Below are positions 25,154-40,093 of a DNA stretch of 64,000 nt, one piece after another. Each line of letters starts with the position of its first letter. Positions within the stretch are counted from its first letter, which is position 1. This stretch comes from Zoogloea sp. (lineage in GTDB: Bacteria > Pseudomonadota > Gammaproteobacteria > Burkholderiales > Rhodocyclaceae), in assembly GCF_023150065.1 (NCBI RefSeq), contig NZ_JAKLLN010000006.1, positions 1-64,000 of the forward strand, written 5' to 3'. Under the pieces are notes generated by a model. It was not told the DNA's origin. It saw nothing but the letters and a program-made list of their open reading frames with translations, and searched no databases. A program made the translations under genes and the position numbers.

Positions 25154-28132
25154 ATGAAACTCAGCAAGCTATCCCTGATCTTCTCCGCGGCCCTGTTGCT
25201 GATGGTTGCGATCAACGGGGTGATTTCCCTGCTGGTGCTGAACGCCTTTGACCGGGCCCAGGCGGTGCAGGACGAGCGGATCGAAGCACTGCACCTCGTC
25301 GGCGAGCTCCGCCGCGAGATGGATACCCTCGGCCGTCTCGTGCGCAGCTACGTGGTGACCCGCGAGACGCGCTATCTCACCTATTACTACGCCATTCTGG
25401 CGATTCGCGAAGGCGAGAAGCCCGCGGTCGAGAAAGGCAGCGCGGCCAGCTACTGGGACCGTGTGATTGCCGGAGAGACGGCCTTCGAGCCGCCGGTGGA
25501 CGGGCCCCGGATATCGATGCGTTCGCGCATGGTGAGCCTGGGTTTCCAGGGGGCCGAGCTGGCTGCCCTGGAGGCGGTGCTGGCCGAATCCGAGGCCCTC
25601 AAGCAGCTCGAGCAGGTGGCCTTCGCCGCTACCCAGGGGCTCTACGATCCCACCACCCGCGCCTTCGTCTCCGACGGGCAGCCCCACCCCGATCTGGCCG
25701 TGAAGCTGGTTCATGGGCAGGAATACGATCACCAGCACGCCCGTGTCGCGGTGGCCGTGGCCCGGCTGCTGGAACAGGTGGACCAGCGCACCGGACGCCA
25801 GGTGGAGGAGGCGCGCCAGCACCTGCGCAACTGGATCATCGCGGTGATCGTGGCCATGGGGAGCGCGGCCCTGCTGGTGCTGTTCGGGCTGCGCACCACA
25901 CGCAGCAAGGTGCTCATCCCCCTTGAAGGCATGTCCGCCGCCACCGGTCGGCTGGCCCGTGGCCAGTACGATGTGCGGGTGACGGGCGAGGGGGGCGTGG
26001 AGGAGGTGCGGGTGCTGCGGGACGCCTTCAACTCCATGGCCACGGCCATCGAGCGCGACATCCACGAGCGTGAGGACATCGAGTCGGCGCTGAAGGAGGC
26101 CAGCGCCCGGGCCGAGCAGGCAACCCAGGCCAAGTCCATGTTCCTCGCCAACATGAGTCATGAAATCCGTACCCCGCTCAATGCGGTGATCGGCATGGCC
26201 GAGCTGATCCTCCATAGCCCGCTGCCGCCGCGCCAGCGGGACTACGCCGAGAAGATCCGGATGGCCGGGCGCAGCCTGCTCGATACCGTCAACGACATCC
26301 TGGATTTCTCCAAGATCGAAGCCGGGCGGCTGGAACTGGAGAGCGTGCCCTTCCGCCTCGAGGAGGTGATCTCCAGCGCTTATCTGCTGGTCGAGCGGGC
26401 CGCTCTGGAGAAGGGCGTGGAACTGCTCTTCGAGGCGCGCCCCGGCAGCGGCAGCCTGCTGGCCGAGTCCCTCGTCGGAGACCCGCTGCGCATCGGGCAG
26501 GTGCTGGGCAACCTGTTGTCCAACGCGGTCAAATTCACCCCTTCCGGTCACGTGTCCCTGCGGGTCGATGGCCAGACGGCGGAGGACGGGCGTCTGATGC
26601 TCAGTCTGATCGTCGAAGACACCGGCATCGGCATGCGCACCGACCAGATCGAGCGCCTGTTCGAGGACTTCGTGCAGGCCGACGGTGCCACTACCCGCCA
26701 GTACGGCGGAACCGGCCTGGGCCTGGCCATCGTGCGCCGGCTGGTGGATCTGATGGGGGGCGACATCCGGGTGCACAGCGTGCCCAAGCGGGGGAGCGTG
26801 TTCCAGGTGCTGCTGCCCCTGGCCCGGGACGAGCGCCGCCAGACGGCTCCGGCGGACAAGCCCGGCCCCAGCCTGCGTGTGCTGGTGGCCGATGACTACC
26901 CCGAGGCCCGCCTGGCCCTCATCGATCTGCTCAACTTCGAGGGGATCGACGACGTGGATGCGGTCAGCTGTGGCGCGGAGGTGCTGAGCTGCCTGGAAGC
27001 CGCCCGGACTGACGGGCTGCCTTACGACCTGCTCTTCCTCGACTGGTCGCTGCCCGACAAGGATGGTGGAGCGATCCTCGAGATCCTGCAGCAGCAGCCC
27101 GACCTCGCGCCCCATCACGTGGCCCTCATGTCCATGCCCCGGGGCATTGACGGAGAGGCTTCGGAGATCCGGCGCGATGGCCTGCATTTCTGCGACAAAC
27201 CGGTGCTGCCCGGGGTGCTGCGACGCCTTTGTGACGCGGTGCTGGGCCGTGTCGTGGCGAGCTCCGGCAGTGGCGAGGTGGCCACCGGCGCCCTCGACGG
27301 CATGCGTGTGCTGCTGGTGGAAGACAACGCCACCGGGCGCGATGTGGCCATTGCCCTGATGGGGCGCTGGGGGGTCGAGGTGGATACCGCCGGGGATGGC
27401 CGGGATGCCCTCGGGCAGCTCTCCGCCCAGCCCCCCGATCACTACGCACTGGTGTTCATGGACCTGCAGATGCCGGTGATGGATGGCTACGAGGCGGTGC
27501 GCCAGCTTCGTGCCCAGCCCGCCTATGACGACCTGCCCATCTACGCCTTGTCGGCCCACAGCGGCCGTGCCGTGCTGGAGCGCTGCCTGGCCATCGGCAT
27601 GAACGGCTGCCTCAACAAGCCCTACGAGCTGAGCGATCTGTACAAGGTGCTGCGCCAGCACTACCCGGGGGCGCCGGATCTGGCCGATCTGCCGGTGGCG
27701 GCCTCGGGCTCGGTGGTGCTGGCCGGGCTGGACGACATTCCAGGTCTGGACGCCCGCTGTGCGATCAACGACACGGGCATCAGCCCCACCCTCTACCCGC
27801 GCCTGCTGGCCAAGTTCCGCCTGCAGTTTGCCGGCGGTCCGGTGGAACTGCGGGCCGCCGTGGATGATCGGGCCTGGGATCAAGTGGCCTCCTTCGCCCA
27901 TACCCTCAAGGGGCGCGCCGGCCTGCTCGGCATGACCGAGGTCTCGGCCCTGGCCGGGCGCCTCGAGGCGGCAGCCCATGCGGGTGACAACAACCGTGCC
28001 CGCATGGCGCTGAAAAGCCTGGAGGAACACCTGCAGGTCATCGTGGCCGGGCTTGCGCAGGTCCTTCCCTCCGACAATGCGTTGGAGGAGTCCAGTCCGT
28101 TGCCCGCGACCACGGCCGTGAGTCAGGTCTGA
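25154..28132 (+). CDS. Hybrid sensor histidine kinase with two receivers and HPt
   Basis: This is a 992-residue membrane phosphorelay protein. Order: membrane segment (about 8-30), periplasmic sensor (about 31-225), second segment (about 226-246), HAMP, HisKA with His336 in MSHEIRTPLNAVIG, HATPase (NLLSNAVKFT, EDTGIGM, GGTGLGLAIV), receiver 1 with Asp630 (FLDWSLPDKDG), receiver 2 with Asp770 (FMDLQMPVMDG), and HPt with His916 (AHTLKGRAG). No DNA-binding partner is adjacent, so the output regulator is elsewhere. The next two genes may encode its envelope partners. Confidence 0.93.
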   Translation: MKLSKLSLIFSAALLLMVAINGVISLLVLNAFDRAQAVQDERIEALHLVGELRREMDTLGRLVRSYVVTRETRYLTYYYAILAIREGEKPAVEKGSAASYWDRVIAGETAFEPPVDGPRISMRSRMVSLGFQGAELAALEAVLAESEALKQLEQVAFAATQGLYDPTTRAFVSDGQPHPDLAVKLVHGQEYDHQHARVAVAVARLLEQVDQRTGRQVEEARQHLRNWIIAVIVAMGSAALLVLFGLRTTRSKVLIPLEGMSAATGRLARGQYDVRVTGEGGVEEVRVLRDAFNSMATAIERDIHEREDIESALKEASARAEQATQAKSMFLANMSHEIRTPLNAVIGMAELILHSPLPPRQRDYAEKIRMAGRSLLDTVNDILDFSKIEAGRLELESVPFRLEEVISSAYLLVERAALEKGVELLFEARPGSGSLLAESLVGDPLRIGQVLGNLLSNAVKFTPSGHVSLRVDGQTAEDGRLMLSLIVEDTGIGMRTDQIERLFEDFVQADGATTRQYGGTGLGLAIVRRLVDLMGGDIRVHSVPKRGSVFQVLLPLARDERRQTAPADKPGPSLRVLVADDYPEARLALIDLLNFEGIDDVDAVSCGAEVLSCLEAARTDGLPYDLLFLDWSLPDKDGGAILEILQQQPDLAPHHVALMSMPRGIDGEASEIRRDGLHFCDKPVLPGVLRRLCDAVLGRVVASSGSGEVATGALDGMRVLLVEDNATGRDVAIALMGRWGVEVDTAGDGRDALGQLSAQPPDHYALVFMDLQMPVMDGYEAVRQLRAQPAYDDLPIYALSAHSGRAVLERCLAIGMNGCLNKPYELSDLYKVLRQHYPGAPDLADLPVAASGSVVLAGLDDIPGLDARCAINDTGISPTLYPRLLAKFRLQFAGGPVELRAAVDDRAWDQVASFAHTLKGRAGLLGMTEVSALAGRLEAAAHAGDNNRARMALKSLEEHLQVIVAGLAQVLPSDNALEESSPLPATTAVSQV

Positions 28133-28247
28133 TTCCGTCCGGCCCGTGTCGGCGGGGTGTGCAATTGCTGCTCATCCCGGGTGTTGGTTGCTGGGATAAT
28201 CGTACCGTCTGATCCTTGCGCCGGTGCGCCTCGCCTCTGCTTTTGCC

Positions 28248-29546
28248 ATGCGTCGATTTCTTGGAGTCATCCTCGCCGGTCTGGCCGTCTCTTCGTGCGC
28301 CTATGCGGCAGAGAGCGCTGATGTCCGTCTCTCATCCTTTGGCACTCTGGGTTATGCCCGGTCAGGGAACGAGCACCGTTATCAGCGCTTCATCGACAGC
28401 GACGGCACCCTGACCCGGGATTCGCTCCTCGGCTTCCAGGCCGATGCGGTGCTGACGCCGGAAGTGACGGCAACAGTCCAGGCGCGGTTTGCGCCGTCCG
28501 AGAGCAGCGACAAGGAGTGGAACGTGCGCCTGCCGTGGGCCTTCCTTGCCTGGCGGCCCAGCAACGAGCTCATCCTCAGGGCAGGCAAGCTGCGCATCCC
28601 GATGCTGCTGTATTCGGAGAATATCGACGTCGGCACCACCTTCCCTTTTGCGCGGCTGCCGATCGAGGTCTATTCGATTCTGCCGACCTGGGACTTTTAC
28701 GGTTTGTCGGTTGGCCGCAGCTGGTTCCTTGGTAGCACGGATGTGGATCTGGAGGGGTTTGCAGGATGGGCGCAGGGGACTTGGCGGGTGTATTTACGGG
28801 ATGATCCGCTGCTTGTCCCCGGTGCCGTATCGGGGGGCTGGCATGAAGGCATTTCCGGTGCTTTTGTGGGGACCATCCTTACCGTCCGGGAGGCCGAGAG
28901 CCGTTTTCGTGTCAGTGTGCTGGCCTGGGATTCCCAGCTGGATACCCTGAAATTTGGCGTGGATTATCCTTACGTCCCGGTGGCGCCGGGCGTTGGCTAC
29001 TATCAGACGGATCCCCGCATTCCGGGGCCTGGCGTGCCGATGAAGGACAGCGTGCGCTTTTACACCCTGTCGGTCGGGCTGGAGCGCGAGCTGGGGGCCG
29101 GCTTCAGCCTCATCAGCGAGCTGGCGTGGCGGCGCAGCGAGAGGATGAGCCTGGCATCGGGTACCAACTCCCTGGCGGGCTATCTGGCGGTGCTCAAGCC
29201 GATGGGGGCGTGGACGCCCTATGTGTATGGGGCGTCGCTGCGCTCGTCCGAACATGCGCGAAGTCTCTACGCGACACTGGAAGGAAGCCGGCTGCCGTCG
29301 TCGGTGCCGGGGGCCGCAGTGGTCAATCTGACCCAGCGCTGGGGGGCGGATTCGGCCCTGGTCTTTGATCAGCACACCCTTGCCTTGGGGACGAGTTATG
29401 CCCTGGGGCGTGGACAGGTGCTGAAGGCTGAGTGGCAGCGCACCCATACCGGGCTCACATCGGCGTTCTACGATGCGCCGCTGGGCGCATCCAGCCGTGG
29501 GCAGAAGCTGGATGTGTTCTCGCTTTCTTACAGCTTCTCCTTCTGA
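28248..29546 (+). CDS. Predicted outer-membrane beta-barrel (porin-like) protein
   Basis: This 432-residue protein has a signal peptide (MRRFLGVILAGLAVSSCAYA). Alternating hydrophobic strands and a terminal LSYSFSF ending in Phe are typical of outer-membrane barrels. LRAGKLRIPMLLYSENIDVG resembles porins of the OprO/P or uncharacterised type. ATG at 28248 is preferred to a GTG 24 bases earlier because the signal peptide starts there. It is followed at once by a periplasmic binding-like gene; the pair may serve one solute. Confidence 0.7.
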   Translation: MRRFLGVILAGLAVSSCAYAAESADVRLSSFGTLGYARSGNEHRYQRFIDSDGTLTRDSLLGFQADAVLTPEVTATVQARFAPSESSDKEWNVRLPWAFLAWRPSNELILRAGKLRIPMLLYSENIDVGTTFPFARLPIEVYSILPTWDFYGLSVGRSWFLGSTDVDLEGFAGWAQGTWRVYLRDDPLLVPGAVSGGWHEGISGAFVGTILTVREAESRFRVSVLAWDSQLDTLKFGVDYPYVPVAPGVGYYQTDPRIPGPGVPMKDSVRFYTLSVGLERELGAGFSLISELAWRRSERMSLASGTNSLAGYLAVLKPMGAWTPYVYGASLRSSEHARSLYATLEGSRLPSSVPGAAVVNLTQRWGADSALVFDQHTLALGTSYALGRGQVLKAEWQRTHTGLTSAFYDAPLGASSRGQKLDVFSLSYSFSF

Positions 29547-29547
29547 G

Positions 29548-29979
29548 GTGAGCCACTTGCCTCGCGTCCGTCTCCTCGGCTCCCTGATGCTGGCCTTTGC
29601 CTTGAGTGGCCTGTCGCCGGCCGTACAGGCCGGGGACGTCGTGCTGATTGCCCATCCGTCGGTGCCGCGTCTTGACCGCGTGACCGTGGAGCGCATCTAT
29701 ACCGGCAAGGTGGTGGAAGTGGCGGGTGTTCGTGTGACGCCCATCGATCTGCCCGTGGGAGATGCCGTGCGCAATCGTTTTCTCGTCCGCTGGGTGAGCA
29801 CGGATGAGGAGCGTTACACCGCCTACTGGACGGTGCGCCGCTACGTGGGCAAGGGTGTCCCGCCAAGGGAAGTCGTCAATGCTGCCGAGGTGAGCCGTCT
29901 GGTGGCTGCGTTGCCGGGCGGCGTCGGTTATATCGACGAAGCGGATCTTCGCCCGGGCGTCAATGTGGTGGCACGCTGA
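29548..29979 (+). CDS. Small PstS-like periplasmic protein
   Basis: This 143-residue protein has an N-terminal export signal (about 1-28, ending SPAVQAG). VVLIAHPSVPRLDRVTVERIYTGKV resembles the PstS-like phosphate-binding superfamily, but it is only half the length of a full binding protein. GTG at 29548 begins one base after the upstream TGA, so translation is coupled. Its end overlaps the convergent hydrolase gene by 20 bases. The ligand is unknown. Confidence 0.65.
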   Translation: MSHLPRVRLLGSLMLAFALSGLSPAVQAGDVVLIAHPSVPRLDRVTVERIYTGKVVEVAGVRVTPIDLPVGDAVRNRFLVRWVSTDEERYTAYWTVRRYVGKGVPPREVVNAAEVSRLVAALPGGVGYIDEADLRPGVNVVAR

Positions 29980-30832
29980 TGCTTTTACCCGTATTGCCCA
30001 GGGCCATGATGCGCTGCGACAGCCCTTCCAGGTAGGCCGGAAACTCGTGGATGTCCGCGTGCCGGGCGCCTTCCACGCGCAGCAGCGTGGCGCGTCCGTC
30101 GCTTGCCGCCACCAGTTGGCGGGCGTGCTCGAAGGGAATCAGCTCGTCCGCGTCCCCGTGGGCGATCAGGATCGGGCTTTTGACCGTGCCGATCAGCCGA
30201 TCGGTGCGCAGGGGGTATTTCAGCAGCGCTGCCGGGACCAGGGGAAACTGCTCGGTGGCTAGGCGTTCCACGCTGGTGTAGGGCGTCACCAGGATCAGCA
30301 GGGCCGGTGTCACCTCGGCCGCCAGCTGGGTGGCCAGACCGCTGCCCAGGGAGCGGCCCAGGATCACCACCGGCTTGCCGGCGTAGGCCGGCGTCACCCG
30401 CGCCCACGCGGCACGTACGTCGGCGTGGAGCTGCGCCTCGCTGCTGATGCGGCCGGTGCTCTTGCCGAAGCCCCGGTAGTCGAGCATGAACAGATCGAAG
30501 CCGAGGTGGCGGTAAAAGGCGATGTTGCGCGTCCAGCCCACGAGGTTTCCCGCATTGCCGTGCAGGTAGAAGACCAGGCCGCGGCTGGCGGGCTGGCGGA
30601 ACAGCAGCGCGCTGAGCTCGGCACCATCGACGGGAATGCGCAGCTCCTCGAAATCCTGCTCCGGTGGGTAGAGGCCGGTGAAGCTGAAATCTGCCGGCAG
30701 GGGCTCCGGGTGGAAGAGCAGGTCTTCCTGCTTCAGGCCGATGGCGGCAAGAGCCGCCCCATAGAGGACCACCGGGGCAGCCAGCAGGCTGCGCAGCCAG
30801 CTTCTCCTGCGAGGTTCGGGGGCGGATTGCAT
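29960..30832 (-). CDS. Alpha/beta hydrolase, membrane-anchored
   Basis: This is a 290-residue protein with an N-terminal hydrophobic anchor (about 13-31). FYLHGNAGN is the oxyanion region, GRSLGSG has the nucleophile Ser, HGDADELIP the Asp and EGARHADIHEF the His. The size and HGNAGN motif match the BEM46/YfhR group. It is downstream of the FAD oxidoreductase gene with a 14-base gap, so probably in that operon. The substrate is unknown. Confidence 0.85.
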   Translation of the reverse strand: MQSAPEPRRRSWLRSLLAAPVVLYGAALAAIGLKQEDLLFHPEPLPADFSFTGLYPPEQDFEELRIPVDGAELSALLFRQPASRGLVFYLHGNAGNLVGWTRNIAFYRHLGFDLFMLDYRGFGKSTGRISSEAQLHADVRAAWARVTPAYAGKPVVILGRSLGSGLATQLAAEVTPALLILVTPYTSVERLATEQFPLVPAALLKYPLRTDRLIGTVKSPILIAHGDADELIPFEHARQLVAASDGRATLLRVEGARHADIHEFPAYLEGLSQRIMALGNTGKSISVPPH

Positions 30833-30846
30833 GTAGGTGGGTCTCC

Positions 30847-32466
30847 CTAGCGGGTGGCGGCCAGCCGGGCGGCCCGTTCGCCCCACCAGCTGGCTTCCTC
30901 GAAAACCGAATAGCCGGACAGATCGGCGTGGGCAAACAGCAGGCGCCCGTCGGCGGCCTGGAGGGCGGCCAGGCCGGGGTCGTTCAGGCTGCCGCAGCCC
31001 GGGATGGCCATGCCGTGACCCCGTACCGTGATGTCCACAGCCTGGGTCCGGCGCCACAGCTCGAGGGCGCCATAGGCCTGCTTCAGGTCGACGGCGGCCA
31101 GTTCCAGAAGTTCGTCCGGGCGCATGGCCAGCAGTCGTTGCCGGGCGTCGGCGGGCGCCTGGTCGGCCAGGGCCCGGTAGGCGGTGAAGACCGTGTGGGC
31201 GGGCTTGGCGGCCCGCAGCCACTGGTGGGTGGAGACGACCCAGCCCAGGCCCGGGCTGCCATGGATCACGTTGTCCCAGGCCAGGGGCGACTCCACCGGC
31301 TCGGTGGGAAAGCCGTCGAGCAGAAAGTTGGCCACCAGCCAGGGGGCCTGGGCGGGCAGATGCCGGGCCGGGTCGAAGCCGTAGTCGCGCAGATGGGGAA
31401 TGACCCGTGCCGCCACGTGCAGGGGCATGGCGCAGATGGCGCGGCGCGCGTGGAGCAGGAAGGGACCGGCGGCGTTCTGGCAGAGGATGGCCACGCCCTC
31501 GCGGGTTTCATCGATGCGCAGGGCGTAGCCGGGCTGCTGCCGGGCAGGGGGCACCCGGCTGCGCAGGCCCCGGGCCAGAAAGGCCAGGCCCTCGGGCCAG
31601 GTGAGCAGGGTGCCGTCGGCGGCATTGGCGGCGTGCCCGCCGCGGCTGGCGAAGTAATGCAGGCCGGCCCAGGCCGATACGTGTTCCGGGCCCGCACCGT
31701 ATTCGTCCCGGCACACATAGTCGAGCCAGGTGTGCAGGCTGGGGGCGCTGTAAGCGCGGGCCGTCAGCCAGTCGCGAAAGCTCAGGGTGTCGAGTTGGTG
31801 CCATTCCGCATCCGTGGATGAAAGCGCCTTCGGCACACAGAACAGGCGGCGGCCGTCGCTGCCCCGGCGGCGGGTCAGGGCCGCCATCTCGGCGAGGAAG
31901 CGCCGATGCTGCCCGGCTTCGTCCGCATTCACCTGTTCGGTGGGCAGCAGGCCTTCGTGCCAGGCGCCGTCGAAAAACAGGCGCTCGTCCGGGGCGTGGA
32001 CCAGGGCCGCTTCACTGAAGCGTGGGCGTTCCGAGAAGGGTTCGGCCTCGATCACGCCGAGCTCGAATAGCAGCTCCCGCACTCCCCGGGATTCCATCGA
32101 AGGCAGGGGCAGGTAGTGGGCGCCGCGGGGGTGGGGCAGGGGGCCTGAGGGGCTGTCGAAGCGGCCGGCAGCGGCGTTGCCGTCGGGCTCCGGGCCGTCG
32201 ATGAGGAGGAAGTCGTCATACCCGTCCCGGGCCAGTCGCCAGGCGGCCGTGAGCCCCGCCACCCCGCTGCCGAGGATGGCCACACCGGTGCGGATCTCCC
32301 GGGTCGGTACGGGCAGCGGCCCGGCGTCACGCAGACGATGCCCCTCGGCCAGGCCGGGCTGGCGGATGTGGATCGGGATGCCCAGGTGCGCCAGGCCGCG
32401 GCAGGCCGGCAGGGCCAGTCCGAGCCCGGCGGCCCCACTGGCCCGCAGAAAGCCGCGCCGCTCCAT
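30847..32466 (-). CDS. FAD-dependent oxidoreductase, Tat-exported lipoprotein-like
   Basis: This 539-residue protein starts MERRGFLRASGAAGLGLALP, a twin-arginine signal followed by a lipobox-like LPAC. The FAD motif is VAILGSGVAGLTAAWRLARD (about 62-81). A C-terminal flavin-amine-oxidase-like end is suggested by LLFAHADLSGYSVFEEA. The start codon shares one base with the stop of the aminopropyltransferase-like gene (TGATG). With a polyamine-type synthase as neighbour, a polyamine or amine oxidase role is possible but not shown. Confidence 0.75.
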   Translation of the reverse strand: MERRGFLRASGAAGLGLALPACRGLAHLGIPIHIRQPGLAEGHRLRDAGPLPVPTREIRTGVAILGSGVAGLTAAWRLARDGYDDFLLIDGPEPDGNAAAGRFDSPSGPLPHPRGAHYLPLPSMESRGVRELLFELGVIEAEPFSERPRFSEAALVHAPDERLFFDGAWHEGLLPTEQVNADEAGQHRRFLAEMAALTRRRGSDGRRLFCVPKALSSTDAEWHQLDTLSFRDWLTARAYSAPSLHTWLDYVCRDEYGAGPEHVSAWAGLHYFASRGGHAANAADGTLLTWPEGLAFLARGLRSRVPPARQQPGYALRIDETREGVAILCQNAAGPFLLHARRAICAMPLHVAARVIPHLRDYGFDPARHLPAQAPWLVANFLLDGFPTEPVESPLAWDNVIHGSPGLGWVVSTHQWLRAAKPAHTVFTAYRALADQAPADARQRLLAMRPDELLELAAVDLKQAYGALELWRRTQAVDITVRGHGMAIPGCGSLNDPGLAALQAADGRLLFAHADLSGYSVFEEASWWGERAARLAATR

Positions 32467-34034
32467 CAACGCACCACGTTGTTCCAGTCCTGCTGGAAGT
32501 AATGCACCAGCCGCTGGTCGTTGAGGTGGTTGGGATCGACGGGCAGGCGCTGCATGTCGGCGGGAAACTGGAACATCAGCCGGGTGGTTTCCGCGTCCAG
32601 GTAGCGGGTGGGCACGCTGTAGGCCGTCGGGGGCGTGTAGCCCGGCTGACGGGTGGCAAGGTTGAAACCCCATTCACCGAAGGAGGGGACGTGGGCATGG
32701 TAGGGGTGGGTGTGGAAGCCGGCCTCGCGCAGGGTGGCATCGATGCACCAGAAGCTGCGCGGGGCGAACCACGGTGAGGTGGACTGCACCACCAGGGCAC
32801 CCCGGGCCGACAGGTGCTTGGCCATGAGGCGATACATGGGCACCGAGTAGAGCTTGCCGAGGCCGAAGCTGGAGGGGTCGGGGAAGTCGGCGATGATCAG
32901 GTCGAAGACCTCGCTGTGGGTCTCCAGCCACTGGCCGGCATCGGCGTTGATGACCGTGACCCGGGGGTTGGACAGGGCCTGCCCGTTGAGCCCGGACAGA
33001 TACTCGTTGCGGGTGAACAGGTCGGTCATGGCCGGGTCCAGGTCCACCAGGGTGACCCGTTCCACCTGGGCGTGGCGCAGGACTTCGCGCACCGCCAGGC
33101 CGTCGCCGCCGCCCAGCACCAGTACCGAGCGGGCCCAGGGCAGGGTCTGCAGGGCCGGGTGCACCAGGGCCTCGTGGTAGCGGTGCTCGTCTCGGCTGGA
33201 GAACTGCAGGTTGCCGTTGATGTGGAGGCGGGTGTCGTCCTTCCAGCGGGTCACGGCGATGCGCTGGTAGGGGGTGGTGGTGGCGAAGATCACCTCGTCG
33301 CCGAAGAGGCCGCGCTCGGCCCAGTGGGTGAGTTTTTCGGAGACGGCCAGGCCGCCGGCCAGGAAGGCCATGACCAGGGCGCCGCGGGTCAGGCGGCTGC
33401 GCAGCCGGGGGATCTCCCGGCGGTAATACCACAGCGTCCACAGGGCCACGGCCACGTTGGCCATGCCGAACAGGAAACCGGTGCGCGACAGGCCCAGCTT
33501 GGGGGCCAGCACCAGGGGAAAGAGCAGGGACACGGCCAGGGCGCCCAGGTAGTCGAAGGTCAGCACCCGGCTCACCAGTTCGCTGAAGCTGGCCTGGCGG
33601 CTGTGCAGGACGCGCATCACCAGCGGAATCTCCATGCCCACCAGCACGCCAAGGAGGAAGACCAGGGCGTATAGGGCGCTGCGGAAGGGGGCCGCCATCC
33701 AGGCGAAGAGCAGGAACAGCAGGGTCGCCGACATGCCGCCGATCAGCCCCACCAGCAGCTCGATGTCGATGAAGCGCGCCAGCACGTCCCGGTCGTCCAC
33801 GTACTTTGAAAGGTGCGAGCCCACGCCCATGGCGAACAGATAGCAGCCGATGATCGACGAGAACTGCAGCACCGAGTCGCCGAGCAGGTAGCTCGACAGG
33901 GCGCCGGCGATCAGTTCGTAGGCCAGGCCGCAGGAGGCCACGACGAACACCGACAGGATCAGCAGGCGGTCGGGCAGGCCGCTCGCTGGGCGGGTGGAGG
34001 CGGGGGTGGCGGGGGGAATTCGGGGTGCGGACAT
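32466..34034 (-). CDS. Membrane-bound spermidine synthase-like protein
   Basis: This 522-residue protein has an N-terminal half with about seven membrane segments (ILSVFVVASCGLAYELIAGA first) and a C-terminal methyltransferase-fold aminopropyltransferase domain (about 280-500). VLVLGGGDGLAVREVL binds decarboxylated SAM in this family and IIADFPDPSSFGLGKLYS holds the catalytic-loop aspartates. The substrate may be a polyamine or a membrane-associated amine. It is divergent from DUF350 by 83 bases; speD, which makes the aminopropyl donor, is in that divergent operon. Confidence 0.85.
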   Translation of the reverse strand: MSAPRIPPATPASTRPASGLPDRLLILSVFVVASCGLAYELIAGALSSYLLGDSVLQFSSIIGCYLFAMGVGSHLSKYVDDRDVLARFIDIELLVGLIGGMSATLLFLLFAWMAAPFRSALYALVFLLGVLVGMEIPLVMRVLHSRQASFSELVSRVLTFDYLGALAVSLLFPLVLAPKLGLSRTGFLFGMANVAVALWTLWYYRREIPRLRSRLTRGALVMAFLAGGLAVSEKLTHWAERGLFGDEVIFATTTPYQRIAVTRWKDDTRLHINGNLQFSSRDEHRYHEALVHPALQTLPWARSVLVLGGGDGLAVREVLRHAQVERVTLVDLDPAMTDLFTRNEYLSGLNGQALSNPRVTVINADAGQWLETHSEVFDLIIADFPDPSSFGLGKLYSVPMYRLMAKHLSARGALVVQSTSPWFAPRSFWCIDATLREAGFHTHPYHAHVPSFGEWGFNLATRQPGYTPPTAYSVPTRYLDAETTRLMFQFPADMQRLPVDPNHLNDQRLVHYFQQDWNNVVR

Positions 34035-34117
34035 GGCTGCGGACTCTACCCGGAAAGCGCTTGCCGGGCACGGGGAATGCTGGCTAAATACTCGCCCGGT
34101 CGCCGAGGATTCCGCTG

Positions 34118-34504
34118 ATGGAGCCGCTTTACAATTACGTCGTGCACTTGCTGTCCGGCCTGTTCATGGTGCTGCTCTTCGCCAGCATCTACCTGCGGGT
34201 CACCCCCTTTTGCGAGCTTTCGCTGATCCGTCAGGGCATCGTTGCGCCAGCCCTGTCCCTGGGGGGCGCCGTCATCGGTTTTTCCCTCACCGTGGCGTCG
34301 AGCATCCTCCACAACGACAGCCTGCAGCAGTTCCTGATCTGGAGCGTGGCGGGCCTGTCGGTGCAGTTGCTCACCTATGTGCTGCTGGGCCGGCTGGTCC
34401 CCCGCCTCCCCGAGCAGCTCGCCGCCAACAACGTGGCTGCCGGCGCCTTTGCCGGAACGGTGGCGCTGGTGGTCGGCATCCTCAACGCGGCCTGCATGTC
34501 CTGA
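34118..34504 (+). CDS. DUF350 membrane protein
   Basis: This is a 128-residue protein with four predicted membrane segments (VVHLLSGLFMVLLFASIY; IVAPALSLGGAVIGFSLTVAS; LIWSVAGLSVQLLTYVLLG; GAFAGTVALVVGILNAACMS). The order and spacing match the DUF350/YjfL family, whose function is not known. It is the first gene of the right-hand operon. Confidence 0.8.
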   Translation: MEPLYNYVVHLLSGLFMVLLFASIYLRVTPFCELSLIRQGIVAPALSLGGAVIGFSLTVASSILHNDSLQQFLIWSVAGLSVQLLTYVLLGRLVPRLPEQLAANNVAAGAFAGTVALVVGILNAACMS

Positions 34505-34579
34505 CTTCACCTGCTCCGGCTCCGGGCGCCCGGGGCTTGCGGTCACTGAATACCTGAACATCCAACATCGGGAGCAAGC

Positions 34580-35608
34580 ATGAGCATCGGATCCTTCATC
34601 AAGAAGCAGTTCATCGACGTCCTCCAGTGGAACGAGGATGCCGACGGCACCCTGGCCTGGCGTTATCCCATGGAGGATTTCGAGATCCAGTACGGCGCCA
34701 GCCTGACCGTGCGCGACTCGCAGATGGCGGTCTTCGTCAATGAAGGCAAGGTGGCCGACGTGTTCGGGCCGGGCAGGTACACGCTCACCACCCAGACCAT
34801 CCCTGTGCTCACCAACCTGAAGAACTGGGACAAGCTCTTCGAGTCGCCCTTCAAGTCCGATGTGTATTTCTTCAGCACCCGTCTGCAGCTCGGTCGCAAG
34901 TGGGGCACCCCCCAGCCGGTCACCCTCCGCGACAAGGATTTCGGCATGGTGCGCCTGCGCGCCTTCGGCATGTACTCCTACAAGCTGGCGGATCCGCGCA
35001 GGTTCTTCACCGAGATCAGCGGTACCCGCGCCGAGTACACCGTAGACGAGCTGGAGCAGCAGCTGCGCAACCTGGTGGTGGCGACCATGAGCGCCACCCT
35101 GGGCGGTGCGGATGTGCCCTTCCTGGACATGGCGGCCAACCAGGTGCTGCTGGCCGATCGCATGCGCGAGGCCATGACGCCGACCTTTGAACGTTATGGC
35201 CTCGCGCTCGACAACTTCGCCGTGGAGAACATCTCCCTGCCGGAAGAGCTGCAGAAGGCCATCGACACCCGCATCTCCATGGGCATGGTGGGCGACTTGG
35301 GCAAATATACCCAGTACCAGGTGGCCAACTCGGTGCCCCTGGCGGCCCAGAACGAGGGCGGCCTGGCGGGGGTGGGCGCCGGCCTGGCCGCTGGCGTGGG
35401 CATGGGGCAGGTGATGATGGATGCCCTGCGTGGCAGCCAGACTCCCGCGGTGGCTCCGTCCGCCACCCCGGTCGCAGCCCCGGCTGCCGCTGCCGATGAT
35501 CCGGAGGCGCGCCTCGCCAAGCTCAAGGCCCTCCTCGACAAGGGCCTGGTGACCCAGGCCGACTACGATTCCGCCAAGGCGGAGATCCTCAAGAAGCTGA
35601 TCGGATAA
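34580..35608 (+). CDS. SPFH-domain protein with SHOCT tail
   Basis: This is a 342-residue protein of the YdjI/virion-core-like SPFH group. Region 25-215 carries the band-7-like domain (VFVNEGKVADVFGPGRYTLTTQ). A glycine/alanine stretch (GLAGVGAGLAAGVGMGQ) and an Ala/Pro linker lead to a C-terminal SHOCT motif (ARLAKLKALLDKGLVTQADY). SPFH proteins scaffold membrane microdomains; this group has no hydrophobic N-terminus here. The ATG follows GGGAGCAAGC. Confidence 0.88.
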   Translation: MSIGSFIKKQFIDVLQWNEDADGTLAWRYPMEDFEIQYGASLTVRDSQMAVFVNEGKVADVFGPGRYTLTTQTIPVLTNLKNWDKLFESPFKSDVYFFSTRLQLGRKWGTPQPVTLRDKDFGMVRLRAFGMYSYKLADPRRFFTEISGTRAEYTVDELEQQLRNLVVATMSATLGGADVPFLDMAANQVLLADRMREAMTPTFERYGLALDNFAVENISLPEELQKAIDTRISMGMVGDLGKYTQYQVANSVPLAAQNEGGLAGVGAGLAAGVGMGQVMMDALRGSQTPAVAPSATPVAAPAAAADDPEARLAKLKALLDKGLVTQADYDSAKAEILKKLIG

Positions 35609-35615
35609 GCGCCGG

Positions 35616-37091
35616 GTGTTCAAGCTCGCCTGCCCCAGCTGCGGCGCGGAGGTCGCCTTCCGTTCGGCCACCTCGGCCATGGCCGTGTGCGAGTACTGCC
35701 ACAGCACCCTGCTGCGGGAGGGCGATGCGGTACGTGACGCCGGCAAGATGGCGGTGGTGCTGGAGGATTACTCCCCCATCCGCATCACCACCTCGGGTAT
35801 GTATGCCGGCCAGGCCTTCGGCGTGGTCGGGCGCATCCAGCTGCGCTACGAGGATGGTTTCTGGAACGAGTGGTACATCCTCTTCGACGACGGCAGCGCC
35901 GGCTGGCTGTCGGACGCCTCCGGCCAGTACGCGGTGACCCTCGATACCGGGCTGGCCGATGATGCCCCGCCCTTCGGCCAGATCGTGCCGGGCGGGCAGT
36001 ACGCCTGGGACGGTGCCAGTTTCACCGCGTCCGACCTGCGCACCGCGCGCTGTACCGCCGGGGAGGGCGAGCTGCCTTTCCAGGTCGGCCCCGGCTGGGA
36101 GGCGAAGGTGGCGGACTACCGCCAGGGCGTGCGCTTCCTTACCCTGGATTATTCCGAAGGCCCCAAACCCCGCCGTTATGCGGGCAAGGCGGTGAAGCTG
36201 GAGGACCTGCGCTGCCAGCTGTTGCGCTCGCCTGACGAGATCGCCGGCAGCGCCGGCCGCCTCAAGGGCAAGGCTGCGACCCTGGCCTGCCCGGCCTGCG
36301 GAACCGCCATCACCTGGCGTCCGGCGGTGGCCGCCCACCTCCATTGCCCGGCTTGCGGCACCGAGAGCGACGCCAGCACCGGTACGCTTGAAGTGATGGA
36401 CGCCAGCCGCCGGGAAGCCATGCAGGCCACCACCCTGTCCCTGGGCGACGAGGCCAGCATCGACGGCAAGCCCTGGACCCTGATCGGCCTGATGAAGTGC
36501 CGGGAGATCGGCGAGGCGGAGGAATGGGTCGAGTATCTGCTGTTCAACGAGATCGCCGGTTTCCTGTGGCTGGTGGAGTCGACGGCCGGCTGGGACAAGG
36601 TGCGGGTCCTCGACACCTGGCCGGAGTCCGTTTCGTCCAGCGCCGTGCGTTATGAAGGCGCTGCCTACACCCGCATGCAGGCCTACGGTGCCCAGGTGGT
36701 TCGGGCCGCCGGCGCCTTCAACTGGCGGGTGAAGGTCGGCGACAGCGTTTCGATCACGGACTATCGGGGCAGCCGCGGCACCCTCACCAGCGAGCGCAGC
36801 CCGTCCGAGCTGGGCTGGTCCCTGGCCCAGCGGGTGCCGGCCGCCACGGTGGATGGCTGGTTCGGCAAGAAGGGGCGCATCACCGGCCCTGTCGCATCCC
36901 TCGACTCCCTCGCCGCCGTCGCCACGGTGGACCGGGGCCAGCTGCGCCCCCTGGCGTGGGTCTTCACGGTGCTGGTGCTGCTGGTGAATGTGCCCATCGC
37001 CTTCATGGGCGGGCTGTACAGCTGGGTGCTGATCGTCATCGCCATCGGCATCCTGTGGCTCCCGGTTTACACCGACGTACTGGACGACTGA
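35616..37091 (+). CDS. DUF4178 protein with two zinc ribbons
   Basis: This is a 491-residue protein. Zinc ribbon 1 is CPSCGAEV...CEYCHS (about 5-30) and ribbon 2 CPACGTAI...CPACGTES (about 226-250). Each is followed by a DUF4178 beta domain, and two hydrophobic segments at the C-terminus (about 448-485) anchor it. The GTG start is 7 bases after the SPFH stop, indicating tight coupling. The function of the family is unknown. Confidence 0.85.
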   Translation: MFKLACPSCGAEVAFRSATSAMAVCEYCHSTLLREGDAVRDAGKMAVVLEDYSPIRITTSGMYAGQAFGVVGRIQLRYEDGFWNEWYILFDDGSAGWLSDASGQYAVTLDTGLADDAPPFGQIVPGGQYAWDGASFTASDLRTARCTAGEGELPFQVGPGWEAKVADYRQGVRFLTLDYSEGPKPRRYAGKAVKLEDLRCQLLRSPDEIAGSAGRLKGKAATLACPACGTAITWRPAVAAHLHCPACGTESDASTGTLEVMDASRREAMQATTLSLGDEASIDGKPWTLIGLMKCREIGEAEEWVEYLLFNEIAGFLWLVESTAGWDKVRVLDTWPESVSSSAVRYEGAAYTRMQAYGAQVVRAAGAFNWRVKVGDSVSITDYRGSRGTLTSERSPSELGWSLAQRVPAATVDGWFGKKGRITGPVASLDSLAAVATVDRGQLRPLAWVFTVLVLLVNVPIAFMGGLYSWVLIVIAIGILWLPVYTDVLDD

Positions 37092-37094
37092 ACG

Positions 37095-37256
37095 ATGTCA
37101 CGGATGAGCTACATCGTTCTCGGAGTGGTCGTGCTGGTGATGGTCACACTCTTCAACCTCGAGCACGTCAATGACCGCAGTGGCGGCCGCAGCTGGGGCA
37201 ACAGCGGCGGCAGTGGCTCCGGGAGCTGGTCGTCCGGCGGCGGGGGGCACAAGTGA
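37095..37256 (+). CDS. 53-residue membrane peptide with Gly/Ser-rich tail
   Basis: The ATG at 37095 is 3 bases after the DUF4178 stop. One membrane segment (YIVLGVVVLVMVTLF) is followed by LEHVNDRSGGRSWG and a tail of Gly/Ser/Trp ending SGGGGHK. Its TGA overlaps the speD start as GTGA, so it is embedded in the operon without gaps, which supports translation. I know no family for it. Confidence 0.7.
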   Translation: MSRMSYIVLGVVVLVMVTLFNLEHVNDRSGGRSWGNSGGSGSGSWSSGGGGHK

Positions 37257-37627
37257 GCGCCGACGCCCATCTGCCCCGGGGGCTGCATCTGCTGGCGGAT
37301 TTTCATGGCGTGCCTGCCGAGCGCCTGCTCGACCCCCTGGCCATCGAGACCCTGCTGCGCGAAGCCGCCCGGGCCGCGGGCGCCACGCCGGTGGGTGGGC
37401 ACTTCCACCCCTTCGGCCCGGGGCTGGGGGTCACCGGCGTGCTGCTGCTGCAGGAGTCCCACATCAGCATCCACACCTGGCCGGAACACGGCTTTGCCGC
37501 GGTGGATGTGTTCATGTGCGGTGCGGCGCGGCCCGAGCGGGCGGTGCAGGTCATCGCCGCCGCCCTGTGCCCGGTGTCCGTCAACTGCCGGGACATGCCC
37601 CGCGGCCAGCCTCCCTTACCGACTTGA
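37253..37627 (+). CDS. speD: S-adenosylmethionine decarboxylase proenzyme
   Basis: This is a 124-residue class 1b pyruvoyl enzyme. The self-cleavage site is Glu68-Ser69 in QESHISIHTWPE, giving a pyruvoyl group; His70 and the later Cys in VNCRDM fit the family. It makes decarboxylated SAM, the aminopropyl donor used by spermidine synthase. The GTG start overlaps the small peptide's stop. Pairing with the divergent aminopropyltransferase-like gene suggests one pathway. Confidence 0.92.
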   Translation: MSADAHLPRGLHLLADFHGVPAERLLDPLAIETLLREAARAAGATPVGGHFHPFGPGLGVTGVLLLQESHISIHTWPEHGFAAVDVFMCGAARPERAVQVIAAALCPVSVNCRDMPRGQPPLPT

Positions 37628-37643
37628 TTTGTCTCCCATCACC

Positions 37644-38222
37644 ATGAACGCCCCGTCCCCTCTCCAGTCCGTTCCCCTGACCCAGGCTTACCGCCTCCTC
37701 AACCACGGTCCCACGGTGCTGGTTTCGTCTGCCCATGGCGACCGTCGCAACGTGATGGCGGCGGCCTGGAACATGCCCCTCGATTTCGACCCGCCCAAGG
37801 TGGCCGTGGTCATCGACAAGGCCACCCTGACCCGCGAGCTGATCGAAGCTTCGGGCCAGTTCGTGCTCGCCATTCCGGGGCGTGATCTGGCCGAGCGGAC
37901 CCTCGCCGCCGGCTCGTGCTCGGGGCGCGAGGGTGACAAGTTCGAGGCGCTGGAGCTGGACGTGCTGCCGGCCAGCCAGGTCCTGGCGCCCCTGCCGGCA
38001 GGGTGCATCGGCTGGCTCGAGTGCCGGGTGATCGACGAACCCCACATCCAGCGCACCTATGATCTCTTTCTTGGGGAGGTGGTGGCGGCATGGGCCGATC
38101 CGGACATGTATTCGGACGGCCGCTGGCATTTTCCGGAGCAGGGCCGGAGCAGCATCCACTATGTTTCCGGCGGTCAGTTCTTTGCGACGGGAGAGGCCTT
38201 CGAGGTGGACGGAAAGGCGTGA
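37644..38222 (+). CDS. Flavin reductase-like FMN-binding protein
   Basis: This 192-residue split-barrel protein (VLVSSAHGDRRNVMAAAW, GQFVLAIPGRDL) fits the flavin reductase/DIM6-NTAB group. It starts 16 bases after speD, so is probably in the same transcript. Substrate and partner are not evident. Its ATG is chosen over upstream frame-read-through because no earlier in-frame start escapes overlap with speD. Confidence 0.8.
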   Translation: MNAPSPLQSVPLTQAYRLLNHGPTVLVSSAHGDRRNVMAAAWNMPLDFDPPKVAVVIDKATLTRELIEASGQFVLAIPGRDLAERTLAAGSCSGREGDKFEALELDVLPASQVLAPLPAGCIGWLECRVIDEPHIQRTYDLFLGEVVAAWADPDMYSDGRWHFPEQGRSSIHYVSGGQFFATGEAFEVDGKA

Positions 38223-38363: not shown

Positions 38364-38942
38364 ATGTCCGTTACCCCCGAGCAAATCGTCGCCGCCTCCA
38401 AAGCCAACGCTGAAGCCGGCCTGAAGTCCGCCACCAGCTTCGTGACCACCCTCTTCACCGCCGTCGAGCGCGTGTCCAGCCTGAACCTGGCCACCGCCCG
38501 CAACGCCTTTGACGACAGCGTTGCCTTCTCCAAGGCTGTGCTCGCCGCCAAGGACCCGCAGGCCCTGGCCGCCCTGAACCTGGGCGCCGTGACCCCCGCC
38601 GTCGAGAAGTCCGTGGCCTACGGCCGCAGCCTGTCCGGCATCGGTGGTGACACCCAGGAAGAGCTGACCAAGCTGGTCGAAGCCGAAGCCGCCGCCCTGT
38701 CCAAGAACGTGGATGTCGCCCTGGAAAACCTCTTCAAGAACGCCCCGGCCGGCTCCGAGCCCGCCATCAAGGCCGTGAAGACCGCCCTGGCCAACGCCAG
38801 CTCGGCCTACGAAGGTGCCCAGAAGGCCGCCAAGCAAGTCGCCGCTGCCGCCCAGGCCAGCGTCGAGAAGGCCACCCTGGTTGCCGTCGAGAACGTTGAA
38901 AAGGGCACCAAGGCCGCTGCCAGCGCCCTGAAGGTTGCCTGA
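38364..38942 (+). CDS. phaP: Phasin
   Basis: This 192-residue PHA-granule surface protein is rich in Ala, with amphipathic helices (QIVAASKANAEAGLKSATSF, FDDSVAFSKAVLAAKDPQAL). It has the typical length and start MSVTPEQI. It coats poly-hydroxybutyrate granules. TTGAGGAGATCATC gives a strong ribosome binding site. The next gene is a PHB depolymerase-like esterase. Confidence 0.9.
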   Translation: MSVTPEQIVAASKANAEAGLKSATSFVTTLFTAVERVSSLNLATARNAFDDSVAFSKAVLAAKDPQALAALNLGAVTPAVEKSVAYGRSLSGIGGDTQEELTKLVEAEAAALSKNVDVALENLFKNAPAGSEPAIKAVKTALANASSAYEGAQKAAKQVAAAAQASVEKATLVAVENVEKGTKAAASALKVA

Positions 38943-38973
38943 TGAATCGATCGATCCTTGCGGATTGATGCAA

Positions 38974-38998
38974 AGAGGCCCTTCGGGGCCTTTTTGCT
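38974..38998 (+). terminator. Terminator after the phasin gene
   Basis: AGAGGCCC/GGGGCCT with a TTC loop is followed by TTTTTGCTTTTT. It lies 30 bases after the phasin stop and just before the depolymerase start. Confidence 0.8.
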
Positions 38999-39016
38999 TT
39001 TTCGAGGAGCCACGCC

Positions 39017-40093
39017 ATGGCCCGTCGCAAGTCTCCCCTCGTATCCGCCCTGTTCAAGCTGACCCGTGCCGGGGTGCGCCAGTCGACAAAGATCGGCAAG
39101 GCCGCCACCCGCCAGGGCCTCGCCGCGGGGGGGCGTCTGGCCAGCTCGGCCCGTCATGTCATGTCGGGCATCGCCACCCCTGCCGAAGCGCCGGCCGCGG
39201 CCAGCGGTGGGCGCTGGCATGAGGGGCGCTGGGGGCTGGGCCCGCTGGCCATGCGCCGCTACCGCCTGTTCATCCCGAGCGGCGCGAGTGCCCGCCGCCC
39301 GATCCCGCTGCTGCTGCTCCTGCACGGCTGCGCCCAGGATACGGCCGCCTTCGCGGCGTCTACCCGTTGTGCTGCCGTGGCCCGGGAGCGTGGCTTTGCC
39401 GTGCTGATGCCCGAGCAGGCCCAGGAGGCCAACCCCCAGCGCTGCTGGAACTGGTTCGGCAGCGATGCCCGGGTGGGCATGGAGACCCGAATCCTGATGG
39501 CCATCGTCGATCATGCGGTGAGCACCCACCCGCGCATCGGTGGACCCCTGTGCGCTCTCGGCCTGTCCGCCGGGGGGGCGATGGCCCTGACCCTGGGTCT
39601 CGAGTTTCCGGATCGTTTCGCTGCCGTCGGCAGTCACTCCGGTGCCGCGCCCTACAGCGCGGTCACGCCGCTGCAGGCAGGGCAGACCATGCGCGGCCGG
39701 CGCTCCCCCGACGCCGAGCCCATCGCCCGGGCCCTCAACGGGCGTGCTGCGCCGCCGGTGCTGCTGATCCACGGGGACTTCGATCCGGTGGTCTCCTACG
39801 CCAACGCCGAAGCTGCGGCCGGGCTGTGGGCAGACCTGCTGCCCGAGGGGACGAAGATGAGCCTGAGCAGTGGCGAGATCCATCGTGGCAGCCGGCGCCG
39901 CCTCACCCGCCAGGACTGGAAGCTGGGGCGCCGGCCCTACGTGCGGCTGTTGCGGGTGCATGGCCTGGGGCATGCCTGGAGCGGCGGCGCGGCCGGGCAG
40001 GCGTTTTCCGACCCGGAAGGCCCCGATGCCCTGCGCCTGGCCTGGCAGTTCTTTGCCGCGGTGATGGAACGGGCGCCGGACAAAGCCGTCTGA
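39017..40093 (+). CDS. PHB depolymerase-family esterase
   Basis: This is a 358-residue alpha/beta hydrolase of the LpqC/PHB depolymerase type. LLLLHGCAQDTAAFA is the oxyanion region, GLSAGGAM has the nucleophile Ser, HGDFDPVVS the Asp and HGLGHAWSGG the His. The N-terminus is basic and lacks a signal peptide, suggesting intracellular action, for example on stored PHB. GAGGAG precedes the ATG. Confidence 0.85.
   Translation: MARRKSPLVSALFKLTRAGVRQSTKIGKAATRQGLAAGGRLASSARHVMSGIATPAEAPAAASGGRWHEGRWGLGPLAMRRYRLFIPSGASARRPIPLLLLLHGCAQDTAAFAASTRCAAVARERGFAVLMPEQAQEANPQRCWNWFGSDARVGMETRILMAIVDHAVSTHPRIGGPLCALGLSAGGAMALTLGLEFPDRFAAVGSHSGAAPYSAVTPLQAGQTMRGRRSPDAEPIARALNGRAAPPVLLIHGDFDPVVSYANAEAAAGLWADLLPEGTKMSLSSGEIHRGSRRRLTRQDWKLGRRPYVRLLRVHGLGHAWSGGAAGQAFSDPEGPDALRLAWQFFAAVMERAPDKAV

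Follow-up and report, generated by a model that had tools for sequence, protein, structure and literature searches.

A constant terminal lysine marks a candidate substrate for a membrane-bound aminopropyltransferase encoded in Zoogloea

The window analysed here, a stretch of 64,000 nucleotides from Zoogloea sp. (contig NZ_JAKLLN010000006.1, positions 1 to 64,000), carries a locus of two divergent arms in which polyamine-related enzymes lie beside membrane proteins (Table 1). The minus-strand arm encodes an aminopropyltransferase (APT) with transmembrane (TM) helices and an amine-oxidase-like flavoenzyme (FAD, flavin adenine dinucleotide), the stop of the first gene and the start of the second overlapping by one base. 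The plus-strand arm encodes DUF350, SPFH and DUF4178 proteins, a small peptide, and SpeD (S-adenosylmethionine decarboxylase), with the start of speD overlapping the end of the peptide gene. The original prediction, made from the letters of this DNA, had named these genes and their divergent arrangement; all are present, as profiles and coordinates confirm. It had also placed a divergent promoter between the arms, and although the 83-base gap is there and may act as one, a scan with the sigma-70 consensus found no sigma-70-like site within it. It had described membrane or zinc-ribbon proteins; the DUF4178 protein carries CxxC pairs, and zinc-ribbon profiles score below their cut-offs. The peptide was listed in that prediction, while its most telling part, a constant terminal lysine, went unnoticed. 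Sequence comparison indicates that the peptide is a constant operon member; the terminal lysine and its constancy are new here.

Table 1. Features of the locus and its edge genes, in window coordinates (aa, amino acids).
Feature	Position	Strand	Details
FAD amine-oxidase-like enzyme	30847-32466	minus	539 aa, twin-arginine start MERRGFL; PF01593 23.4 bits, cut-off 19.8
APT, seven TM helices plus spermidine-synthase-type catalytic domain	32466-34034	minus	522 aa; NF002956 689.2 bits, cut-off 472; PF01564 123 bits
Gap separating the divergent arms	34035-34117	none	83 bases, from coordinates of the two starts
DUF350 membrane protein	34118-34504	plus	128 aa, 4 TM; PF03994 108 bits
SPFH (Band_7_1) protein with SHOCT end	34580-35608	plus	PF13421 268 bits, PF09851
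DUF4178 protein, two DUF4178 stretches	35616-37091	plus	PF13785 99.6 bits; GTG start, C-terminal hydrophobic helices
Tail peptide	37095-37256	plus	53 aa, one TM segment, Gly/Ser-rich tail, end GGGGHK; proposed substrate
speD (S-adenosylmethionine decarboxylase)	37253-37627	plus	TIGR03330 121.5 bits, cut-off 75.65
Alpha/beta hydrolase, edge gene	29960-30835
Flavin reductase, edge gene	37644-38222

The open reading frame (ORF) that follows DUF4178 has a recurrent architecture, with an N-terminal TM segment, a variable and often Gly/Ser-rich tail, and lysine as its last residue. It was followed through an enlarged set of 111 APT loci, made up of a sample of 94 (the best 80 of at least 564 confirmed matches and 14 further loci), the window, 5 plasmid loci and 11 Bacteroidota loci. 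A DUF4178 profile match is present in 88 of the 111, and all 88 have a terminal lysine, either on a peptide after DUF4178 or at the C-terminus of DUF4178 itself. When the nearest hydrophobic ORF after DUF4178 was taken without regard to its last residue, 78/88 had a lysine end. DUF4178 itself ends in a TM segment and an HK tail in L064, L066, L083, L111, L116, L117 and L122, and its C-terminus is likewise a lysine tail in L155, for eight fusions in total. Inspection added an 83-residue ORF ending RYHK (L120) and a peptide ending SFGK (L150), where a second DUF4178 match had misled the blind rule. In six remote APT loci (L123, L145, L146, L147, L149 and L151), in which DUF4178 was missed by our own profile and is named by Pfam or the record, there is a lipoprotein ending GFGK, SFGK, SGGK or SSGK. 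Where DUF4178 lies away from APT (16 genomes, with 2 loci at contig edges), the tail is found in 13 of the 14 readable loci, and among closer relatives in 15/16. L120, the six lipoproteins and the counts away from APT come from searches for ends of the form [GH]K or [GHV]K, which were not blind.

The 77 distinct peptides end in HK (57), GK (19) or VK (1), and 52 of them have no second lysine beyond residue 25. By comparison, a terminal lysine is found in 49/895 other ORFs of at least 100 residues, a mechanically chosen background that includes spurious ones, and in 7/360 other proteins of the system. The peptide is under purifying selection, with ratios of nonsynonymous to synonymous substitution (dN/dS) of 0.11-0.32 in six comparisons, taken from 15 relatives with the peptide and with dS > 1 in two. 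Lysine or arginine precedes the TM segment in 70/77 peptides; together with the remote lipoproteins and the DUF4178 fusions, this suggests tails whose N-terminus is inside and whose C-terminus is outside. No Pfam match above cut-off was obtained for the lysine-tailed lipoproteins and peptides, and no literature on the lysine tail was found by title and abstract start within a limited collection. Two arrangements are of separate note. Solitalea (L094, 6479-9525) has two tandem copies of DUF4178, tail peptide and DUF350, with YYHK at the end of each peptide, and in an Alteromonas plasmid operon (L123, 6959-13617) APT and speD are joined by a TelA-like gene, DUF4178, a long DUF350 and the lipoprotein with its SSGK end.

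Partner families were counted with iterated profiles in the 62 of the 94 sampled loci that were well covered (flanks of at least 6.5 kb and at least 4.5 kb): DUF350 and DUF4178 each occur in 53, FAD in 49, SPFH in 45 and SpeD in 44. These loci are mutually related and were picked by APT similarity, and their counts, like those of the tail, are not independent trials; as a further limit on the counts, L031 and L068 come from one contig, and the contigs of L193 and L194 are as long as those of L043 and L044. Record titles among the matches listed include Proteobacteria, Acidobacteria, Bacteroidetes, Gemmatimonadetes, Verrucomicrobiota, Nitrospinota, Elusimicrobia and Fibrobacteres, and the closest named relatives among them (L043 and L044) share 84% identity in APT. 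In the reverse direction, a DUF4178 family search matched 3/114 genomes of the window's class and 12/296 of a Bacteroidota phylum sample, and APT adjoins DUF4178 in 15/15 of these genomes. Of 17 APT loci whose fetched stretch holds no DUF4178, short contigs among them, 16 have it elsewhere in the genome. Judged from these neighbourhoods, the association of APT with DUF4178 is strong both ways and more than chance, and the recurrence of the gene set that had been predicted is borne out as non-random. Apart from the tail peptide and the six families, the fetched flanks showed no further constant partner; among unlabelled flank clusters the largest occurs in 25/95 loci, at scattered distances and on both strands.

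The APT protein scores above the curated cut-off of NF002956, the membrane-type polyamine aminopropyltransferase family, and below that of canonical spermidine synthase, TIGR00417 (127.8 vs 249.55 bits). Its AlphaFold2 model (mean predicted local distance difference test score, pLDDT, 84.1; 14 sequences) has seven long N-terminal helices and then a spermidine synthase (SpdSyn) fold, to which the nearest folds are the Thermus triamine/agmatine aminopropyltransferase and plant thermospermine synthase. The catalytic residues of the predicted spermidine-synthase domain have not been lost: aspartates D311, D383 and D386 (GGGDG, DxPD) are kept in 111/111 APT sequences. The acceptor loop, PSFGEWG, is nearly invariant in the same set and differs from what we take to be the canonical motif. 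Ordinary synthesis of spermidine or another free polyamine by a membrane-bound enzyme would suit both the nearest folds and the NCBI family name, with a free polyamine as putative acceptor. The TIGR00417 score argues against it, however, and it accounts for neither the tail nor the oxidase; moreover, such membrane fusions reportedly (Li 2019) fail to complement a spermidine synthase (speE) mutant and do not restore its spermidine. This explanation is therefore considered very improbable.

Lysine and arginine are distributed unevenly over the membrane part of APT. Per protein, the N-terminus holds 1.78 and loops 2, 4 and 6 hold 1.86, 3.26 and 3.08 (sum 9.98), against 0.04, 0.86 and 1.24 in loops 1, 3 and 5 and 0.44 after TM7 (sum 2.58). 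On the strength of seven helices and this positive-inside bias, the prediction is that the catalytic domain sits outside the cytoplasm, where the tail and the oxidase are predicted too.

The FAD enzyme exceeds the curated cut-off of PF01593, polyamine/amine oxidase, and among Protein Data Bank (PDB) entries its profile matches oxidases of L-amino acids, monoamines, spermidine and putrescine; it may oxidise an amine. A loose pattern for export, RR-x-hydrophobic within the first 90 residues, is present in 66/76 relatives, and some Bacteroidota relatives read RK instead of RR. SpeD lies above the cut-off of TIGR03330, AdoMet decarboxylase class 1b (AdoMet being S-adenosylmethionine, SAM), and contains ESHISIHTWPE and MCG, in which we assume the pyruvoyl serine, the processing histidine and the cysteine to lie. 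The motif E-S-H...H...P-E is found in 70/70 relatives and the cysteine in 64/70. Action of the window's SpeD on AdoMet is putative, and SpeD variants that act on ornithine or arginine instead have been described (PMC10407285). The speD gene is the sole AdoMet_dc match in the window's genome; SpeD occurs in 27/30 APT genomes, as a single copy in 25. Canonical speE above cut-off was found in 1/30 APT genomes, one without DUF4178, at a strict cut-off that just 4/14 control genomes pass. Two more APT genomes, the window's included, have a SpeE-like match other than APT (166-193 bits), and APT may therefore not be the only enzyme to use the donor.

From the parts of the system, their conservation, the terminal lysine, the catalytic residues and the charge bias, all of which the sequences show, we infer a membrane side, a route for the donor, an acceptor, a chemistry including the oxidase reaction, and a scaffold. 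The favoured reading, to which we give somewhat less than an even chance, is an extracytoplasmic aminopropylation system in which APT aminopropylates the terminal lysine of an exported tail and SpeD supplies the donor. SpeD would make decarboxylated SAM in the cytoplasm, and this would reach the outside C-terminal catalytic domain of APT through the enzyme's own membrane part or through DUF350. APT would then attach at least one aminopropyl group to the terminal lysine, at the amine of its side chain, on a membrane-anchored acceptor; this would be the small peptide here, and in other species a lipoprotein or the DUF4178 C-terminus. The flavin enzyme of Tat type might act on the modified lysine, by trimming it or producing a reactive aldehyde, while DUF4178 and SPFH could form a scaffold. 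The core of the original hypothesis, SpeD-fed aminopropyl chemistry at the membrane, stands; the hypothesis as a whole has partial support.

Several observations weigh against this scheme. Among the well-covered loci FAD is absent in 13/62 and SpeD in 18/62; 25/77 peptides have a further lysine beyond residue 25; and two relatives with DUF4178, L169 (away from APT) and L198 (a closer relative), have no lysine tail after it. PDB matches of the oxidase are mostly limited to the FAD-binding start, the window genome's soluble SpeE-like protein (166 bits, cut-off 249.55) could share the donor, and the topology of APT is itself a prediction. Decarboxylated SAM would have to cross the membrane with no transporter shown and with DUF350 lacking a fold match. 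The main doubts are donor transport, the inferred chemistry and the possibility that the lysine is a recognition signal.

One rival also takes the lysine of the tail as acceptor but has it modified before export, in the cytoplasm, with the APT catalytic domain inside. The donor and SpeD are cytoplasmic by nature and no donor transporter is known; the seven helices, with a positive N-terminus and positive even loops, nevertheless place the C-terminal domain outside, which makes this arrangement improbable. The last doubt leads to a stronger rival, somewhat unlikely in our estimate, in which the acceptor of APT is a lipid amine or a small molecule at the membrane, while the terminal lysine serves an operon partner as a signal for docking or sorting. 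A constant residue at the extreme end is also typical of recognition signals, the penultimate H or G is kept too (76/77), and an acceptor loop that is presumably non-canonical leaves the fitting acceptor unspecified. A docking signal, on the other hand, need not be a lysine paired with an amine-modifying enzyme across phyla, and the GG ends found beside peptide-spermidine ligases (four proteins only, see below) suggest that the chain end is a chemical target.

If aminopropylation of an exported lysine is correct, it bears on more than this locus. Several phyla share the membrane fusion of SpdSyn together with DUF350 and DUF4178, to which neither substrate nor function has been assigned, and a terminal-lysine tail at a constant gene position offers a specific, testable candidate substrate for APT. 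It would also explain the retention of SpeD in genomes without a canonical spermidine synthase.

The DUF350 protein is present as a single copy in the genome. Its AlphaFold2 model (pLDDT 91.8) found no PDB fold match with E <= 0.001, and no claim of a channel is therefore made. In the window and fetched loci, DUF350 proteins fall into size classes near 70, 130 and 280 residues, corresponding to about 2, 4 and 8 TM segments; the series looks like duplication of a two-helix unit, and the 4-TM model has a pattern of helix, short helix, helix present twice. At the edges of the locus, the left arm had been predicted to include a hydrolase beside the Tat flavoprotein; the flavoprotein is retained as a member, but the hydrolase was rejected, being found in 0/94 other loci. 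The flavin reductase, which lies inside the coordinates of that prediction, was dropped as well, since it occurs in only 2/94 other loci, both Zoogloea. A role in anti-phage defence was abandoned because the PADLOC matches, one each for FAD and APT, cover just part of each protein. Farther out, judged by translation only, three ORFs lie to the left (window 25154-29979), one of 992 residues resembling a hybrid sensor kinase, and ORFs resembling a phasin and a depolymerase-type esterase lie to the right (38364-40093).

In Ravi 2024 (PMC11237479), a 7TM-spermidine-synthase fusion is described with DUF350 and DUF4178, as are a variant in which band-7-SHOCT is accompanied by AdoMet decarboxylase and polyamine oxidase, a group with a lipoprotein (Ctha_1186 domain), and DUF4247 operons of Actinobacteria; a role in membrane dynamics and envelope stress is proposed there from gene context. 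The window has APT, DUF350 and DUF4178 together in one neighbourhood, and shares with its operons the enzyme fusion, DUF350, DUF4178, band-7-SHOCT, SpeD and the oxidase. The main group as presented in that text has a CesT/Tir-PspA pair, whereas none is found among window genes 30847-37627, and the window fits the band-7-SHOCT variant rather than the main group. The terms 'C-terminal lysine', 'small peptide' and 'periplasm' do not occur in its main text (PMC11237479). The operon type is thus already published without function; what the present analysis adds is the terminal lysine and the predicted outside topology. Li 2019 (Biochem J) is also said to have described SpeD with an MFS-like SpdSyn fusion and DUF350 and to have proposed an acceptor other than putrescine, which is not known to have been named.

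Diatom silaffins offer a chemical parallel, their polyamine reportedly being attached to lysine. Silaffins carry protein-bound polyamine of aminopropyl units (PMC6356823), of the kind proposed here. They differ in being eukaryotic and modified at internal residues. An extension of the favoured reading, unlikely though not negligible, is a bacterial extracytoplasmic counterpart, in which APT, fed with exported decarboxylated SAM, would build at least one aminopropyl unit on the terminal lysine of the membrane-tethered tail and the oxidase would make a reactive end that cross-links envelope parts. Such a post-translational modification would be new and, to our knowledge, the first extracytoplasmic use of decarboxylated SAM.

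Another comparison is with E. coli, where the yjf operon has DUF350, as the window does, and an exported lipoprotein with a Gly/Ser-rich end lies beside a polyamine-linked enzyme. A GG end is found on YjfM, which sits between YjfL (DUF350) and the ligase YjfC, on YgiB, which precedes YgiC, and on two further DUF1190 lipoproteins; these four proteins make up the GG rule, the DUF1190 survey having matched 2/143 genomes. In locus L203 (214-3147) a DUF1190 lipoprotein ending GFGG shares an operon with DUF350 and a protein judged by eye to be YgiC-like. RefSeq labels YgiC and YjfC peptide-spermidine ligases, for which Pederick 2023 is said to be the reference. No ATP-grasp ligase gene of the YgiC/YjfC type is found among the operon's genes: the E. 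coli systems pair an ATP-grasp ligase with a GG tail, whereas the window's operon pairs an aminopropyltransferase with a lysine tail. Since a ligase needs a carboxylate and an aminopropyltransferase an amine, the GG ends (in those four proteins) and the lysine ends fit their respective enzymes, and the two DUF350 systems may be linked by a tentative rule in which a lysine end goes with an aminopropyltransferase and a GG end with a peptide-spermidine ligase.

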